In this document: piece by piece, positions 33,481-53,314 of the stretch
Layout of the letters: each line of letters starts with the position of its first letter
Position numbering within the stretch: position 1 is the stretch's first letter
Assembly: GCA_023955635.1 (NCBI GenBank)
Contig: JAMXHR010000017.1
Location: 310,001-374,000 of the forward strand
Reading direction: 5' to 3'
Length of the DNA: 64,000 nucleotides
From: Methanosarcina sp. ERenArc_MAG2
GTDB lineage: Archaea; Halobacteriota; Methanosarcinia; Methanosarcinales; Methanosarcinaceae
The notes under the pieces: model-generated
What the model was told of the DNA's origin: nothing
Seen by the model: the letters and a program-made list of their open reading frames with translations, nothing else
Database searches by the model: none
Translations under genes and position numbers: made by a program

Positions 33481-33922
33481 CTTTACTGAAGCTTAAGAAA
33501 ATGGCTGCTATAAGTCCTAAATAAAGGCAAAAGGTCGAAAGTTTTGGAAAAAATTCAAAAACACATTTTGAGTAACCAAGTCGGTTTTCAGAAAAAACGA
33601 TAGCAGGAAAAATTATCTGACTTTCCGCAGATGTCTCTGACTTTCCGCAGATGTCTTCAAAAAAATAACATTTTTTCCTGTTATCGTTTTTGGAGAAATA
33701 TTCGAAAATTTGCAGTTATTATCTTTACTGAAGCTTAAGAAAATGGCTGCTATAAGTCCTAAATGAAGGCAAAAGGTCGAAAGTTTTGGAAAAAATTCAA
33801 AAACACATTTTGAGTAACCAAGTCGGTTTTCAGAAAAAACGATAGCAGGAAAAATTATGAAAATTGAAAGGACATCTGCGGAAAGTCAGATTATGAAAAT
33901 TGAAAGGACATCTGCGGAAAGT

Positions 33923-43022: not shown

Positions 43023-43440
43023 TACACTATCAATATAAATGTATCTAAATGTATCGGTATATTGCTAATTTATTCGGTATTGTATCGATTTTTGTTGGAG
43101 GCATGTTTCACTCTGTTTTGTGAGGCCTTTATAAACTCCAGCAAAAGTCAAGGCAAATAACACAATGCCCCTTATCAAAAGTAACCACTAATGAAATAAC
43201 ACATAAGCAATGCATCCAAGAGCAAGAAACAAACATGCCACAATAATAGTCGTTTTTCTATGATTGTAACAAGCCATAGGCATCCCCCATCGGCTTGATT
43301 ACAATTTTCACTTATTAAATTTAGCATGGCTCTTTTCAAACAAGAAGAGAATCTGAAAATTGAACTAGAGAATAAATCAAAATAAAACAAGAATAGTACG
43401 CAATAGAAGGTAAGAGTGAAATTGCCATTATATAAAATTT
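43023..43440. other. Intergenic region, no gene seen
   Basis: Between the PadR operator and tRNA-Pro. AT-rich with no supported frame or hairpin. Confidence 0.4.
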
Positions 43441-44576: not shown

Positions 44577-45725
44577 ATGGATATAGTAGAAACACACAGG
44601 GAAAAATGTACACAGTGCGGAAAGTGCCTTGAGGTCTGCCCTCGCTACGACGATCTTGATTTAATTAAAATTCTTTATGGGTATCTGGAAGGAAAATCGG
44701 AAATAGATTCCGACTCTCTGTTGCGCTGTCTGACCTGCGGGCTTTGTACTGATGCTTGTCCCGACAAGCTGGGAATTAAATTGCTTATTTCTCCTGCCAG
44801 GCAGAAATGGGTGAATGAAAATGGCCTTACTGACAGGCAGACAATGGTTGACCCTGATGCTGAAAACAATCTCTTTAAAAAAATTGCCGGAATGGATGAA
44901 ATTCCTACATACAAAGACGATTCAGGTTCTGTTGTGTATTTTCCTGGTTGCGCCGGAACCTTTATCAATAAAATTATGGCACAGGCTGCTGTTGTCCTTC
45001 TGGAAAAAGCAGCAGTTGATTATACGGTCCTGAACGGGGTTGAATATTGCTGCGGAGCAGTATCCGCAGGTTCCGGAGATCCGGGACCTATCCGCAGAAA
45101 CGGACAGCGCAATATCTCTGAAATCCGAAAAAGGGGAGCAAAAACTCTTATAACTGCCTGTCCCGGCTGCTTCAAAGCTTTTAAGGATATTTACCCGAGA
45201 ATATTTGGAAAGCTTGATTTTCAAGTTCTGCATATTTCCCAGTACCTTGAGCTTCTAATAAAGGAAGGTAAACTTGCTCCGAAGGCGGTCCTCAATCACA
45301 GGGTCTTTTACCACGATCCGTGCCATCTGACCAGAGGAATGGGGGTGTATCGGGAAGCAAGAAATTTACTTGAAAACATCCCAGGCACTGAACTTGCCAA
45401 CAAGACCCCTGAGAGTTCAGCCTGTTGTGGGTTCGGTGGTGGGGTAAGGGTTAATTATCCTTCCGAATCTCTGAAAGTGGCTTCTGACCGCTACGAAGCT
45501 GCAGAAAAACTGGGCTGTGATATAATAATCACTAATTGCGGAGGCTGCATGCAGAACCTTATTGAAGCCGGGAAGGACGAGAAAATTAAAGTCTTTGATC
45601 TTGCCGAATATCTTTCCCTGGCCTGTGGGATAAAATTAGAGCGAGAAGACACGAAGATGCTGGAACTCGTCAACCGGGCTTACAGCCTCTGCATTTCAGG
45701 TTACAGAGAATCCAATAGCTCATAA
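44577..45725 (+). CDS. HdrD-like (Fe-S)-binding protein with two CCG domains
   Basis: A 382-residue protein built like heterodisulfide reductase subunit D: two ferredoxin-type clusters at the N-terminus ('CTQCGKCLEVCP' at 11-22, 'CLTCGLCTDACP' at 51-62) and two CCG domains ('EYCCGAVSAG' with 'CPGCFKAF', then 'CCGFGGG' with 'NCGGCMQNL'). In HdrD the CCG motifs bind the catalytic 4Fe-4S cluster that cleaves CoM-S-S-CoB; paralogues like this one serve unknown thiol/disulfide or electron-transfer reactions, since the true hdrD pairs with hdrE and no hdrE is next to it. It lies directly upstream of the methylamine operon but 1.4 kb away. Confidence 0.85.
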   Translation: MDIVETHREKCTQCGKCLEVCPRYDDLDLIKILYGYLEGKSEIDSDSLLRCLTCGLCTDACPDKLGIKLLISPARQKWVNENGLTDRQTMVDPDAENNLFKKIAGMDEIPTYKDDSGSVVYFPGCAGTFINKIMAQAAVVLLEKAAVDYTVLNGVEYCCGAVSAGSGDPGPIRRNGQRNISEIRKRGAKTLITACPGCFKAFKDIYPRIFGKLDFQVLHISQYLELLIKEGKLAPKAVLNHRVFYHDPCHLTRGMGVYREARNLLENIPGTELANKTPESSACCGFGGGVRVNYPSESLKVASDRYEAAEKLGCDIIITNCGGCMQNLIEAGKDEKIKVFDLAEYLSLACGIKLEREDTKMLELVNRAYSLCISGYRESNSS

Positions 45726-46321: not shown

Positions 46322-46815
46322 GTATTCTTATCTCCAACCAGTTCTATGCTATCTTATTAGCAATCCAATCTAAGAAAATAGATACGTCCACAGTTAGTGA
46401 AAAAAAGAATAACTTTTTAAGTCAAAATTCTAATTTGAGATCCTCAATCTGGCAGTACAGAAGCTTTGCAAAAATAGAACGAGAACTTTCTAAAAACAAT
46501 CATATGTTTTTCTCGAAATATAAGGACCAGAATAATCCTCCTCTGGTTAAAAAACAGTAATATTTCCTTAATTAATTACATGGAACTAAATATACATAGC
46601 ATTTCCATTATTTACTATGCATTCGCCCCCTTAGTTCTTATGGCGGTCGTTCTTTTAATGTCATTCAAATAACTTTATAAAAATCACTTTTAAATATCTC
46701 CTATTTATATTTTGGGATTATTTCATTTTGTTTTCTTCCCAAATATACTCGTAAAATGCATCATATAGAAAATTATTTATAGAACCCTTAATTTTGTTAC
46801 AACTTTTTTACAAAA
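46322..46815. other. Intergenic region upstream of the methylamine promoter
   Basis: Nearly 500 AT-rich bases. I see no supported gene; short TATA-like stretches occur, but none is tied to a frame. Confidence 0.4.
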
Positions 46816-47144
46816 ATATTTATATGAGAAAAATGAACCTTTTACTGGAGACATCTGTAAAGATGAGTTAACAGACGGGATTTAAATGGCACTAAAAAAT
46901 ACTCCCTCTGCTAAAACACTCATGAACCCCACTCAAGATAATCATGAAAACTTCATGATTTCATTGTCTCACTTGTGGTGATCATGGTTCCCACCCATGG
47001 TGATCGTGAGTTTCTTCTTGTGCATCTCGTGGCTTTAAACGAAAGCCATGAGCTTGCAGCCCTGATATTCATGAATAATCGTGACAATCAGGGGAAGGGT
47101 TAAGACGTCTCTATAGTCTAAAAACTAAAACGGAGGATGCAATT
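46816..47144 (+). promoter_or_regulatory. Promoter and long structured leader of the methylamine operon
   Basis: A TATA-like AATATTTATATGA (about 46815-46827) precedes a leader of roughly 290 bases. The leader holds a perfect hairpin AATCATGAA-AAC-TTCATGATT (about 46940-46960), further TCATGA and CCATGG-containing palindromes to about 47070, and a 31-codon frame (46886-46981, MALKNTPSAKTLMNPTQDNH and on). GGAGG at 47132-47136 closes it. Long leaders with post-transcriptional control are known for Methanosarcina methyltransferase operons, so regulation here is likely. Confidence 0.6.
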
Positions 47145-47786
47145 ATTAGCAAAGAAGAGTTGCTTCAGGAACTAGCAGGTGCTGTAATCTCCTGCAAGAA
47201 GGACGCAGTACTCGCTGCTGTTGAAAAAGCTAAAGGAGAACTGGAACCTTCCGAAATAATTGAAAAGGGGCTCGCAGCAGGTATGAACGAAGTGGGGGTT
47301 CTATTTGAGAGGGGCAAACTTTTCCTTCCCCACGTAATGATAGCTGCCGACGCAATGACTGCAGGAGTTGCAGCCCTTAAGGATCTTATGCCTGAAGGGG
47401 CTTCAAGCTCGAAAGTTGGCGTTATTGTGAACGGTACGGTAGAAGGCGATGTCCATGATATTGGTAAATCCATTGTCTCCACCATGCTCCAGTCTGCCGG
47501 CTTTGAAGTATATGATATCGGCCGTGATGTTCCTGTCAAGAATTTTGTTGAAAAGGCAAAAGAAGTAAATGCTGATATGATTGGAATTTCCGCTCTTATG
47601 ACCACAACCCTTCAGGGGCAGAGGGATGTAATTGAACTCCTCAAAGAAGAAGGTCTTAGGGACAGGGTAAAGGTCATGGTAGGCGGCGCACCCGCAACCC
47701 AAGCCTGGGCTGACAAAATCGGTGCAGACTGTTATGCAGAAAATGCAAGTGAGGCTGTCGCAAAGGCAAAAGAACTGCTGGTTTAA
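47145..47786 (+). CDS. mtbC: Dimethylamine corrinoid protein MtbC
   Basis: A 213-residue cobalamin-binding protein that takes the methyl group from dimethylamine via MtbB and passes it to the CoM methyltransferase MtbA. The corrinoid base-off motif D-x-H-x2-G is '[11 protein letters not shown]' (His about 104), followed by the S-x-L and GG motifs 'GISALMTTT' and '[10 protein letters not shown]'; the N-terminal helical cap is complete. The conserved N-terminus [11 protein letters not shown] starts right after ATT at 47145-47147, eight bases from GGAGG, so ATT appears to be the start codon; TTG at 47160 would cost five conserved residues and lies too far away. First gene of the operon. The assignment as mtbC rather than mttC follows gene order and similarity. 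Confidence 0.88.
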
Positions 47787-47812: not shown

Positions 47813-49299
47813 ATGGCAAAAAATAATGCAGTTGCAGGACTTAACGCACTTAATGGCGTAGAATTAAATCTTTTTACTACTGACGAACTCAAAGCTATTC
47901 ACTACGCAACCATGGAAGTTCTTATGGACCCTGGTGTTCAGGTTTCTGACCCCGAGGCAAGGAAGATCTTCAAGGAAAATGGCTGTGAAGTTAACGAAAA
48001 GACTCAGATCGTAAAGATCCCTGAATATCTTGTAAGAAAAGCCCTTCAGCTCGCACCCTCTAGATTTATTCTCTGGGGCCGTGACAAAAAGAACAATACC
48101 GTCCAGGAATGCGGTGGCAAAGTACACTGGACCTGTTTCGGTACCGGTGTGAAGGTCTGCAAGTACCAGGACGGAAAGTATGTAACCGTTGACTCCGTCG
48201 AACAGGACATTGCAGACATCGCAAAACTCTGTGACTGGGCTGAAAATATCGACTATTTCTCTCTCCCCGTCTCTGCTAGGGATATTGCAGGCAAGGGTGC
48301 ACAGGACGTTCACGAGACTTTCACCCCGATCGCAAACACCTCAAAGCACTTCCACCACATTGACCCTGTCGGCGAAAATGTCGAGTACTACTGGGACATC
48401 GCAAAGGCCTACTACGGCGGCGACGGAGAAGAAGCCAGGAAGAAACCGATCTTCTCCATGCTCCTCTGCCCGACCAGCCCTCTTGAACTCAGTGTCAATG
48501 CCTGCCAGGTCATCATTAAGGGTGCCCGTCTCGGAATCCCGGTTAACGTCCTGAGTATGGCAATGTCCGGTGGATCTTCTCCTGTCTATCTTGCAGGAAC
48601 TCTCGTTACCCACAACGCCGAAGTCCTCTCAGGTATCACCCTCGCCCAGCTTGCAGTGCCCGGAACAAAGGTCTGGTATGGAAGCTCAACAACCACCTTT
48701 GACCTGAAGAAAGGTACCGCACCTGTTGGTTCTCCTGAACTCGGTCTTATCAGTAGCGCAGTCGCAAAGCTTGCCCAGTTCTATGGCCTCCCTCCTATGT
48801 AGCAGGTTCCTAGTCTGATTCCAAGGTCCCAGATAACCAGGCAGGCCACGAAAAAACCATGACAACTCTCCTGCCTGCTCTCGCCGGTGCTAACACCATC
48901 TACGGAGCTGGGATGCTTGAACTCGGAATGACTTTCTCAATGGAACAGCTCGTCATTGACAACGATATCTTCAGTATGGTCAAGAAAGCCATGCAGGGAA
49001 TTCCTGTCTCAGAAGAAACTCTCGCAGTCGAATCTATCCAGAAAGTAGGCATCGGAAACAACTTCCTTGCTCTTAAGCAGACCAGAATGCTTGTGGACTA
49101 TCCGTCCAACCCCATGCTCATCGACAGGCGCATGTTTGGAGACTGGGCAGCATCTGGTTCAAAGGATCTTGCAACAGTTGCACACGAAAAGGTTGTAGAC
49201 GTCCTCAAGAACCACGAAGTCAAACAGATCGACGCAGACCTCCTCAAGGACATGAAGGCAGTCGTGGACAGAGCTGACAAAGCCTTCAGAGGCATGTAA
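47813..49299 (+). CDS. mttB: Trimethylamine methyltransferase MttB, pyrrolysine-containing, one apparent frameshift
   Basis: Transfers a methyl group from trimethylamine to MttC; a TIM-barrel enzyme of 495 residues with pyrrolysine in the active site. One G is missing at 48799: 'LPPM' should be followed by GTA GCA GGT TCC TAG TCT GAT, that is VAGS[15 protein letters not shown]. With that base restored the sense amber at 48811-48813 is codon 334, exactly the known Pyl position, and the total length is the usual 495. The TAG that seems to end the first frame at 48800 is a by-product of the missing base. GGAGG lies nine bases upstream of the ATG. C-terminal '[20 protein letters not shown]' is normal. 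Confidence 0.95.
48811..48813 (+). other. In-frame amber = pyrrolysine codon 334 of mttB
   Basis: TAG in the context VAGS-TAG-SDSK, the established Pyl site of MttB. Decoded by tRNA-Pyl, whose pyl genes are not in this window. Confidence 0.93.
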
Positions 49300-49332: not shown

Positions 49333-49983
49333 ATGGCAAACAAAGAAGCAATCATTGCGAAAGCAAAAGAAGCAATCACCGAATTCGATGATGAACTTGC
49401 AGCAGAAGTGGCAGAAGAAGCCCTTGCTGCAGGAATCGACCCTGTAGAGCTCATTGAGAAGGGCTTTACCGCAGGCATGGAAGAAGTCGGAGCAAAGTTC
49501 GAACAGGGTGCCCTTTTCCTTCCCCATGTACTCGCAGCCGCTTCAGCAATGAACGCAGGCATAGAAGTAATCAAGCCGGAAATGGAGAAGCGCAAGTCTC
49601 AGACCAAGAACCTCGGAACTGTCGTTATCGGGACCATCGAAGGCGATATCCACTCCATTGGAAAGGACATAGTATCTTCCATGCTTAACATTGCCGGTTT
49701 CAAAGTTGTGGATCTTGGAAGAGACGTTCCAATCAAAACCTTCGTCGAAAAGGCAAAGGAATTCAAACCCCAGGTTATCGCATCCTCCGCCCTCATGACC
49801 ACAACCATGGTTAACCAAATCCAGATCGAGGAGCAGTTGAAAGAAGCAGGGATCCGCGATCAGGTCAAGACCATGGTCGGTGGCGCTCCTGTTACCCAGG
49901 ACTGGGCAGACAAAATCGGCGCAGACATCTACGGTGAAAGCGCCAACGATGCCGTCAGCAAGGTAAAGGCAGCCCTACTCTGA
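49333..49983 (+). CDS. mttC: Trimethylamine corrinoid protein MttC
   Basis: A 216-residue corrinoid protein, partner of MttB. The base-off motif is 'GDIHSIGKDIV' (Asp105, His107, Gly110), and the downstream 'ASSALMTTTMVNQ' and '[20 protein letters not shown]' complete the cobalamin site. The N-terminal 'MANKEAIIAKAKEAITEFDD' is the MttC type and distinguishes it from the MtbC-like first gene. A GGAGAG site precedes the ATG; the gap to mttB is only 33 bases. It ends before a strong hairpin that may attenuate transcription into mttP. Confidence 0.92.
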   Translation: MANKEAIIAKAKEAITEFDDELAAEVAEEALAAGIDPVELIEKGFTAGMEEVGAKFEQGALFLPHVLAAASAMNAGIEVIKPEMEKRKSQTKNLGTVVIGTIEGDIHSIGKDIVSSMLNIAGFKVVDLGRDVPIKTFVEKAKEFKPQVIASSALMTTTMVNQIQIEEQLKEAGIRDQVKTMVGGAPVTQDWADKIGADIYGESANDAVSKVKAALL

Positions 49984-51910: not shown

Positions 51911-53314
51911 ATGGCAACTGAATATGCTTTGCGGATGGGAGACGGTAAACGTGTCTTCCTTACCAAAGAAAAGATTTTAAGCGAGATCGAAGCCGGAACT
52001 GCAAATGCTGCCGATCTTGGCGAGATCTCTGCCCTCAGCGCAGATGAAATCGACAAGCTTGCAGAAATTCTCATGATGCCCGGCAAGGCTGTCAGTGTCG
52101 AGCAGGGTATGGAAGTGCCTGTAACGCACGACATCGGCACACTCCGGCTTGACGGAGATCAGGGCAACAGCGGAGTAGGGATTCCTTCCAGCCGCCTCGT
52201 TGGCTGCATGATGCATGAGAGGGCTTTTGGCGCCGACACAATGGAACTCGGACACATTGACTACAGCTACAAGCCAGTAAAGCCCGTAGTCTCAAATGAA
52301 TGCCAGGCAATGGAAGTCTGCCAGCAGAACATGATTATCCCGCTCTTTTACGGGGCAATGCCTAATATGGGGCTTTATTACACTCCTGACGGGCCATTCG
52401 AGAACCCTGGAGACCTGATGAAGGCTTTTAAGATTCAGGAAGCCTGGGACTCCATGGAACACGCTGCAGAACACCTTACAAGGGATACTGTCTGGGTCAT
52501 GCAGAAACTCTTTGCCTCCGGGGCAGACGGCGTCAACTTTGACACAACTGCCGCTGCCGGAGACGCTGACATGTATGGTACTCTCCATGCAATTGAAGCT
52601 CTTAGAAAAGAATTCCCTGACATGTACATCGAAGCCGGAATGGCTGGGGAATGCGTACTCGGTATGCACGGAAACCTTCAGTATGACGGCGTGACCCTTG
52701 CAGGCCTCTGGCCTCATCAGCAGGCTCCGCTTATTGCAAAAGCCGGGGCAAATGTCTTCGGGCCAGTGTGCAATACTAACACCAGCAAAACATCTTCCTG
52801 GAACCTTGCCCGTGCAGTTACCTTCATGAAGGCAGCTGTCGAAGCTTCTCCAATCCCCTGTCACGTTGACATGGGCATGGGGGTTGGCGGAATTCCGATG
52901 CTTGAAACTCCTCCAATCGATGCCGTTACTAGGGCCAGCAAAGCAATGGTTGAAATTGCAGGCGTAGACGGCATATAGATCGGGGTCGGCGACCCGTTGG
53001 GTATGCCGATTTCCCACATAATGGCTTCCGGAATGACAGGAATAAGGGCTGCCGGCGACCTTGTCGCAAGGATGCAGTTCTCAAAGAATATGAGGATAAA
53101 AGACGCAAAAGAATACGTGGCAAAGAAACTCAACGTCGACACAATGGACCTATCAGACGAGCATGTCATGCGTGAACTGCGTGAAGAGCTTGACATCGGT
53201 GTCATAACCTCAGTTCCTGGCGCTGCAAAAGGAATTGCTGCAAAGATGAACATCGAAAAGTTGCTCGATATCAAGATAAATTCCTGCAACCGCTTCAGAA
53301 AGCAGATCCGTTAA
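51911..53314 (+). CDS. mtbB: Dimethylamine methyltransferase MtbB, pyrrolysine-containing
   Basis: A 467-residue methyltransferase that demethylates dimethylamine and methylates MtbC. The frame is continuous except for TAG at 52976-52978, codon 356, the established Pyl position ('AGVDGI'-Pyl-'[14 protein letters not shown]'-type context). The remaining 112 codons run to TAA at 53314. Start ATG 51911 follows GGTGAT. The barrel domain shows '[20 protein letters not shown]' at the N-terminus. It is the last gene of the operon and is separated from its corrinoid partner mtbC, as in other Methanosarcina. Confidence 0.95.
52976..52978 (+). other. In-frame amber = pyrrolysine codon 356 of mtbB
   Basis: TAG with the coding frame intact on both sides, matching the known Pyl site of MtbB. 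Confidence 0.93.

Follow-up and report, generated by a model that had tools for sequence, protein, structure and literature searches.

A conserved folded mRNA leader and an apparent AUU start codon in front of mtbC in Methanosarcina

In the window, a stretch of 64,000 nucleotides from Methanosarcina sp. ERenArc_MAG2, positions 46847-47144 are, as judged by sequence comparison and folding, a conserved folded mRNA leader, and the gene behind it, mtbC, seems to begin with AUU and not with AUG. The reading favoured here, to which a probability of roughly 45% is given, is that the 298-nt multi-helix leader acts in cis after transcription has been initiated, on translation initiation of mtbC and on mRNA stability, and that it is not a methylamine sensor. 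A long hairpin-rich stretch between a TATA box and mtbC had been described in a sequence-only reading of this DNA, and that observation as a whole was confirmed. The features are listed in Table 1.

Table 1. Features of the mtbC leader and the genes behind it (positions in the window)
Feature	Position	Strand	Basis or remark
TATA box TATTTATA	46817..46824	+	30 nt before predicted start
Predicted transcription start, first G of GGAGAC	46847	+	30 nt after TATA start
Structured 5' leader, 298 nt	46847..47144	+	homology, folding z, covariation
Proposed closing helix P1, GGAGAC 46847-46852 with GUCUCU 47107-47112	46847..47112	+	RNAalifold, 23 leaders
Hairpin P2, CAUCU-GUAA-AGAUG	46852..46865	+	93.6% of cells paired
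Helix P3, CAGA.GGGA / UCCC.UCUG, uORF start in loop	46872..46910	+	91.4% paired
Upstream ORF (uORF), 31 codons	46886..46981	+	only start codon at site conserved
Helix P4, ACUCAUGA 46918-46925 with UCGUGAGU 47004-47011	46918..47011	+	94.0% paired
Hairpin P5, AAUCAUGAA-AAC-UUCAUGAUU	46940..46960	+	
Hairpin P7, AUCAUGG / CCAUGGU	46981..47001	+	94.1% paired; two pairs double-changed
Hairpin P8, UGCA + CUCGUGGCUUU / AAAGCCAUGAG + UGCA	47021..47058	+	14 pairs, 6 double-changed, 80.8% of cells paired
Hairpin P9, 15-nt arms 47060-47074 / 47079-47093	47060..47093	+	folding, covariation
Shine-Dalgarno GGAGG	47132..47136	+	in 26/26 leaders
AUU start codon of mtbC, predicted	47145..47147	+	ATT in 26/26 leaders
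mtbC, dimethylamine corrinoid protein	47145..47786	+	NF041607, 384.7 bits, cut-off 350
mttB (amber/Pyl codon), two frames from 1-nt shift	47813..49299	+	TIGR02369 on both pieces; PYLIS_3
Second corrinoid protein gene, mttC by position	49333..49983	+	TIGR02370, 319 bits
mtbB (Pyl)	51911..53314	+	TIGR02368, 1066.6 bits; PYLIS_2

The gene mtbC is the first of a predicted operon mtbC-mttB-mttC-permease-mtbB, and a 4Fe-4S protein gene at 44577-45725 bounds the leader region on the other side. The permease was assigned by position and literature to a 353-aa frame after the second corrinoid protein gene, for which no NCBIfam match was obtained; a 101-aa frame lies between it and mtbB. Compared with L061 and L063, mttB lacks one base in a C run near 48792, and the split of its frame is probably an assembly error in the draft genome.

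In all 26 leaders compared, TATWTATA is located 29-31 nt upstream of a 5' end reading GGAGAC or GAGAC. In M. mazei, the transcript start of mtbC (MM_1687) has been mapped 414 nt upstream (Jaeger 2009, quoted in the accessible text of PMC3407599 and PMC11549558), and the Ribo-seq start precedes the annotated ATG by 138 nt or 46 codons (PMC11549558, accessible text). The MM_1687 5'-UTR is the same element as the leader described here, and L021, of the M. mazei type, carries it with 276 nt from the G of GGAGAC to ATT; 276 + 138 = 414. Within the first 50 codons of L021, ATG, GTG or TTG occurs just once, as ATG at codon 47, and 46 x 3 = 138, so that its ATT is the site of the published Ribo-seq start. 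Thus the two published distances, as quoted in these texts, coincide with the sequence-derived transcript start and the ATT codon in L021. This is the only locus of the 26 with both published primer sequences, its primer-to-primer distance being about 1044 bp vs 875 bp in the paper, and identity with the published strain upstream of the promoter is not implied. A transcript start close to mtbC had been named as evidence against the sequence-only reading, and the mapped M. mazei start is far from the gene according to the same two texts.

The leader DNA was matched in 27 of 59 genomes, namely 26 of the 30 Methanosarcina genomes (the own genome included) and one genome of a sister genus, in which the match covers 38 bases only. 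Among the four Methanosarcina genomes without the leader, three (G010, G017 and G023) were also without MtbC at E 1e-80 among the matches listed, and G011 has one MtbC with 84% identity. The length from GGAGAC to ATT is 273-301 nt in 24 leaders, 344 nt in L026 and 513 nt in L025; the last (genome G004) contains about 240 extra nt inside the P9 region. No Rfam match was obtained for the leader, whether at the gathering threshold or with E values up to 1. When the leader and two conserved motifs were searched in the own genome, one full match and otherwise short matches were found, and two of the short ones were inspected by eye. L046 (contig C10, about 223150-223350) consists of tandem repeats with AAAATGGCACTAAAAA around AAAATGGCACTAAAAACGGA, which resemble the uORF start of the leader and lie beside a transposase-like frame. 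L047 (contig C2, 225031-225073, minus strand) is a stray GCTAAAT..CTCATGAACCCC within a small hairpin, and no methylamine gene was seen in the 5 kb around it.

The palindromes noticed previously are present, with TCATGA at 46920, 46942, 46953 and 47069 and CCATGG at 46995. The claim that inverted repeats are much denser here than elsewhere held for CATG-type arms, of which the leader has seven; 1275 sliding 298-nt windows (including those overlapping the leader) average 1.03, and three of them reach seven. For 6-mer palindromes generally, however, the leader is only in the upper tail (11 vs a mean of 4.5; 30 of 1275 windows equal or better). The folding z of 46816-47144 is -5.05, with 0 of 100 shuffles as good, and that of the 150 nt at 46976-47125 is -8.97 vs a mean of -0.2 (sd 1.25) in 160 150-nt windows sampled over the 64 kb with 10 shuffles each, two of which fell below -5. 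Other strongly folding 150-nt windows are 43201-43350 and 33601-33750, with z about -5. Over the 26 leaders the mean z is -3.8, ranging from -1.5 to -8.2 (12 shuffles each).

Conservation of the stems across Methanosarcina leaders was implied by the earlier proposal, and the stems are indeed kept, with paired substitutions. RNAalifold predicted 54 pairs from 23 leaders, 12 of them double-changed in at least one row. The 5' domain, with a hand-drawn structure of 41 pairs in six helices including the weak P6, was evaluated in an alignment (A4) of 26 rows, 25 of them distinct, in which the P5 arms are misaligned in two rows of genus g21. Here 92.6% of cells are paired, and 12 pairs and 20 cells are double-changed vs 4.0 and 5.9 in shuffled alignments (0/500); the score is 0.146 vs 0.031-0.093 in slides, the slide by -3 giving 10 pairs and 15 cells. 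Additional pair types do not exceed chance in this domain, 96 of 500 shuffles reaching as many. For the 3' domain a covariance model was built and the sequences were realigned, because MAFFT alone misaligned P8 and P9. In the resulting alignment (A6; 25 rows, one antisense match, 27 pairs), which is therefore fitted to the structure, 78.8% of cells are paired, and 13 pairs and 25 cells are double-changed vs 6.7 and 10.6 after shuffling (0/500). The score is 0.163 vs 0.046-0.103 in slides, in which at most 44% of cells are paired. The slides by -2 and +2 still give 10 and 11 double-changed pairs vs 13, so the pair count alone does not discriminate, and paired cells and score do. Alignments A1 and A2/A6 are without L011, L025 and L026, A4 is without L025 and L026, and the A6 search is without L068.

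Among the individual helices, P3 has an A-U to C-G change in one row and P4 a C-G to U-A change in two, which are the g21 rows. P9 comprises 13 pairs, seven of them with double changes, and 76.9% of its cells are paired; its columns 73/82 are C-G in nine rows, U-A in eight, U-G in six and other in two. The core of P1 is invariant, with no compensatory change inside it, and the U-A to C-G change assigned to P1 by RNAalifold involves the base immediately preceding the predicted transcript start. P1 and P2 compete for C46852. The stretches around CTAAAA and GAACCCC are unpaired and largely conserved.

The 3'-domain model was built from Methanosarcina only. In 31 sources it found the g21 leaders L064 (E 0.0008) and L068 (E 0.0018), antisense matches also appearing from 0.0018, and it missed L025, L026, L074 and L118. 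In a search of 111 whole genomes of the family (E up to 0.01, strict filters), it matched exactly one place in each of 24 genomes, all of them Methanosarcina mtbC leaders, and no match was found in the four g21 genomes. The assignment of a leader to g21 is thus based chiefly on sequence and layout, i.e., on a GGAGAC or GGAGAT 5' end, CGGGAAG...ATGGCA, GCTAAAAACTTGTGAACCCC, hairpins and GGAGGATGCAATT-ATT in L064 and L068; inspection by eye of L074 and L118, in genus g2, showed no more than parts of the layout. With one place per genome in 24 genomes, nothing suggests a distributed ligand class; the stems covary, and no ligand pocket or aptamer was identified in them.

The 31-codon frame pointed out in the sequence-only reading exists, and every one of the 26 leaders has a start codon at transcript nt 35-42, which reads ATGGCA in 24, GTGGCA in one and a shifted ATG in one. 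The start mostly follows CGGGATTWAAA, resembling the start regions of some mtbC paralogues. By contrast, its length is 8 codons in three leaders, 12 in thirteen, 15 in three, 31 in two, and 19, 23, 25, 28 and 53 in one each, so that neither frame nor length nor sequence is conserved as would be expected of a leader peptide. A start which is kept while frame and length vary fits ribosome passage better than a peptide. The stops are TGA or TAA throughout, and the suggested link to pyrrolysine finds no support in them, with TAG at the end of 0 of 26 uORFs. For an attenuator of the leader-peptide kind, a bacterial-type scan of 46600-47200 gave no intrinsic terminator. Two translated sORFs were reported from Ribo-seq in the M. 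mazei leader (PMC11549558, accessible text).

The gap from GGAGG to ATT is 7-9 nt in all 26 leaders. In most of them a stop is present 6 codons upstream of ATT, and in 22 of 23 leaders the frame contains no canonical start between the upstream stop and ATT, the exception being L009 with GTG at -19. A conserved near-cognate codon at Shine-Dalgarno distance, with no canonical start there, is found in all 26 leaders, as expected of a gene with an infC-like non-AUG start. Among the matches listed, 127 distinct mtbC-family genes (L002, L008, L024, L067 and L120 excluded, and L127 and L128 also outside the count) start with ATG in 65 cases, ATT in 35, ACG in 25 and ATA in one, with one unclassified (L125). 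A perfect GGAGG precedes 60 of the 61 non-AUG and 18 of the 65 AUG genes among these; a probability for this contrast is withheld because the rows are related.

In related mtbC genes, ACG, AUU or AUA occurs at or next to the position of the Methanosarcina AUU. In the 63 places chosen from other genera among the matches listed, ACG was found in 15 of 16 genes of g3 (judged by shared contigs to be Methanococcoides) and in six of six of g24, and ATT in five of 27 of g5 (Methanolobus on the same ground), the rest of g5 having ATG. ATT is also found in all four g21 copies located before mttB (ATG in three other copies) and in the single g2 gene, and ATG in four of four genes of g25 and in one each of g4 and g7. 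Paralogous Methanosarcina mtbC genes mostly begin with ATG GCA, and a second copy in Methanosarcina sp. KYL-1 (L059) is an mtbC before mttB with ATG. ACG behind a perfect GGAGG was observed in L101, L104, L105, L107-L109, L111, L113, L223-L228 and L230-L244 (Methanococcoides and g24), and some ACG genes of these groups have a canonical codon further off, upstream or downstream. The Methanohalobium mtbC L117 has an apparent ATA start, and ATG is found in L116, its sister copy. On a quick tree, 10 start-codon changes were counted by parsimony, with 52 of 122 inner branches open, and the starred branches force only two changes, AUG vs the rest. As this tree is poorly resolved, separate non-AUG lineages are claimed, and no count of origins is given. 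The odd start codon is independent of the Methanosarcina leader, because in L094, L102, L105, L108 and L117 no homologous leader was seen by eye in the 460 nt upstream.

That mtbC starts at TTG codon 6, at ATG codon 47 or elsewhere is highly improbable, even though AUU start codons are very rare, TTG is present at codon 6 in many species, and L051 and g21 have an in-frame ATG overlapping the Shine-Dalgarno sequence 5 codons upstream. TTG is missing at codon 6 in L013-L017, L021, L022 and L025, and Methanolobus copies have ATG AGC exactly at the ATT AGC of Methanosarcina. Moreover, the M. mazei Ribo-seq start is not at ATG 47 but 138 nt upstream of it, and the reporter protein ran larger, as an upstream start 46 codons off predicts (PMC11549558, accessible text). 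As to the leader itself, it could be chiefly an mRNA stabiliser, with 5' end and body folded against nucleases and translation unregulated. The predicted transcript begins with a strand of P1, and 26 leaders fold strongly despite differing sequences; this account is nevertheless somewhat unlikely, since it leaves unexplained both the uORF start conserved in 26 of 26 and the largely conserved unpaired CTAAAA and GAACCCC stretches.

Alternatively, a repressor or an ArsR-type regulator might bind the TCATGA palindromes as DNA, downstream of the promoter, and the RNA structure would then be incidental. In the accessible texts, trimethylamine control acts at the transcript level with its repressor cited as a personal communication (PMC11549558), and the ArsR-type MM2441 is proposed to activate mtbC1 (PMC3510493). 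The arms, however, lie 4 to 78 nt apart and co-vary, with G-U pairs in use (P9 columns 73/82), which argues against a DNA operator because an operator needs neither; we consider this explanation unlikely. A methylamine riboswitch, leader-peptide attenuator or pyrrolysine sensor would suit a long structured leader upstream of methylamine genes and the reported sORFs, but is very unlikely. In the M. mazei reporter test, trimethylamine raised the transcript together with the protein; a riboswitch is excluded by the authors, for whom translational control, e.g., by sORFs, stays possible (PMC11549558, accessible text). The variable uORF and its stops and the result of the terminator scan also speak against these readings, as do the single full-length match of the leader in the own genome and the one model match per genome in 24 genomes. 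Of the earlier suggestion of a riboregulator or leader-peptide switch, therefore, an RNA-level element is likely, because the stems are conserved with paired changes and the M. mazei transcript start is far from mtbC, whereas the leader-peptide, pyrrolysine and methylamine-riboswitch readings did not stand. Regulation by methylamines most likely takes place at transcription, in line with the published work, and with induction at the transcript level the leader is most likely a post-transcriptional element.

In the favoured reading of a leader acting in cis on translation initiation and stability, AUU would render initiation on mtbC weak and selective, the perfect GGAGG would offset the weak codon, and the folded leader body would protect the transcript. 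As a possible further step, GUCUC (47107-47111) may pair in turn with GGAGAC at the 5' end, in P1, and with the Shine-Dalgarno GGAGG, a masked ribosome site alternating with a closing stem; through this swap, ribosomes starting on the uORF, which would melt P2 and P3, might alter access to mtbC. Folds constrained to P1 or to the anti-Shine-Dalgarno pairing are at most 2 kcal/mol apart in 18 of the 26 leaders and more than 5 kcal/mol apart in L013, L016, L017 and L022. In the ensemble of the window's leader neither is favoured (P1 probability 0.00, anti-Shine-Dalgarno pairing 0.02), 11 of 26 leaders have both below 0.15, and P1 dominates (0.92-1.00) in L013, L017, L018 and L022. The letters involved in the proposed swap hardly vary among the leaders. 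It is rather unlikely, though conceivable, that start-codon stringency is the control knob: in several lineages of Methanosarcinaceae, AUG would have given way to AUU, ACG or AUA after a perfect or nearly perfect Shine-Dalgarno sequence, tying MtbC output to the state of the initiation factors, and in Methanosarcina the folded leader, with its uORF ribosomes and the swap, would in addition gate the AUU.

The infC gene of E. coli, encoding IF3, has an AUU start behind a good Shine-Dalgarno sequence, as mtbC does, and is under post-transcriptional control. However, infC is autoregulated by its own product, whereas MtbC is a metabolic corrinoid protein, and we know of no feedback of MtbC on its own expression. 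The mtaCB methanol methyltransferase operons of Methanosarcina also have long 5' leaders on a substrate-specific methyltransferase operon, a likeness drawn by description alone; the 3'-domain model, by contrast, found one place per genome in the 24 genomes hit. The M. mazei mtbC leader was already called extended and structured, and tested, in 2024 (PMC11549558, accessible text). In their accessible parts, the published M. mazei accounts name neither AUU nor a covariation-supported structure nor the spread over genus and sister genus. "AUU" or "ATT" is absent as a word from PMC11549558, and neither "AUU" nor "MM_1687" occurs in the main text of PMC11456600. No report of an AUU start codon in Methanosarcina was found in the literature searched, which comprised main texts, few subscription papers and none of the papers that first described the M. 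barkeri genes.

Archaeal cis-acting leaders with a comparison-supported structure are few, and this one is located on a strongly regulated methanogenesis operon and already in use as an expression tool. If the AUU start is true, annotations made from the downstream ATG lack 46 residues, and a hidden N-terminal extension would be present in vectors designed from them. The occurrence in relatives of AUU, ACG or AUA at this site or directly beside it provides a natural, testable system for archaeal start-codon selection, and in Methanosarcina the AUU start may control the amount of MtbC made.
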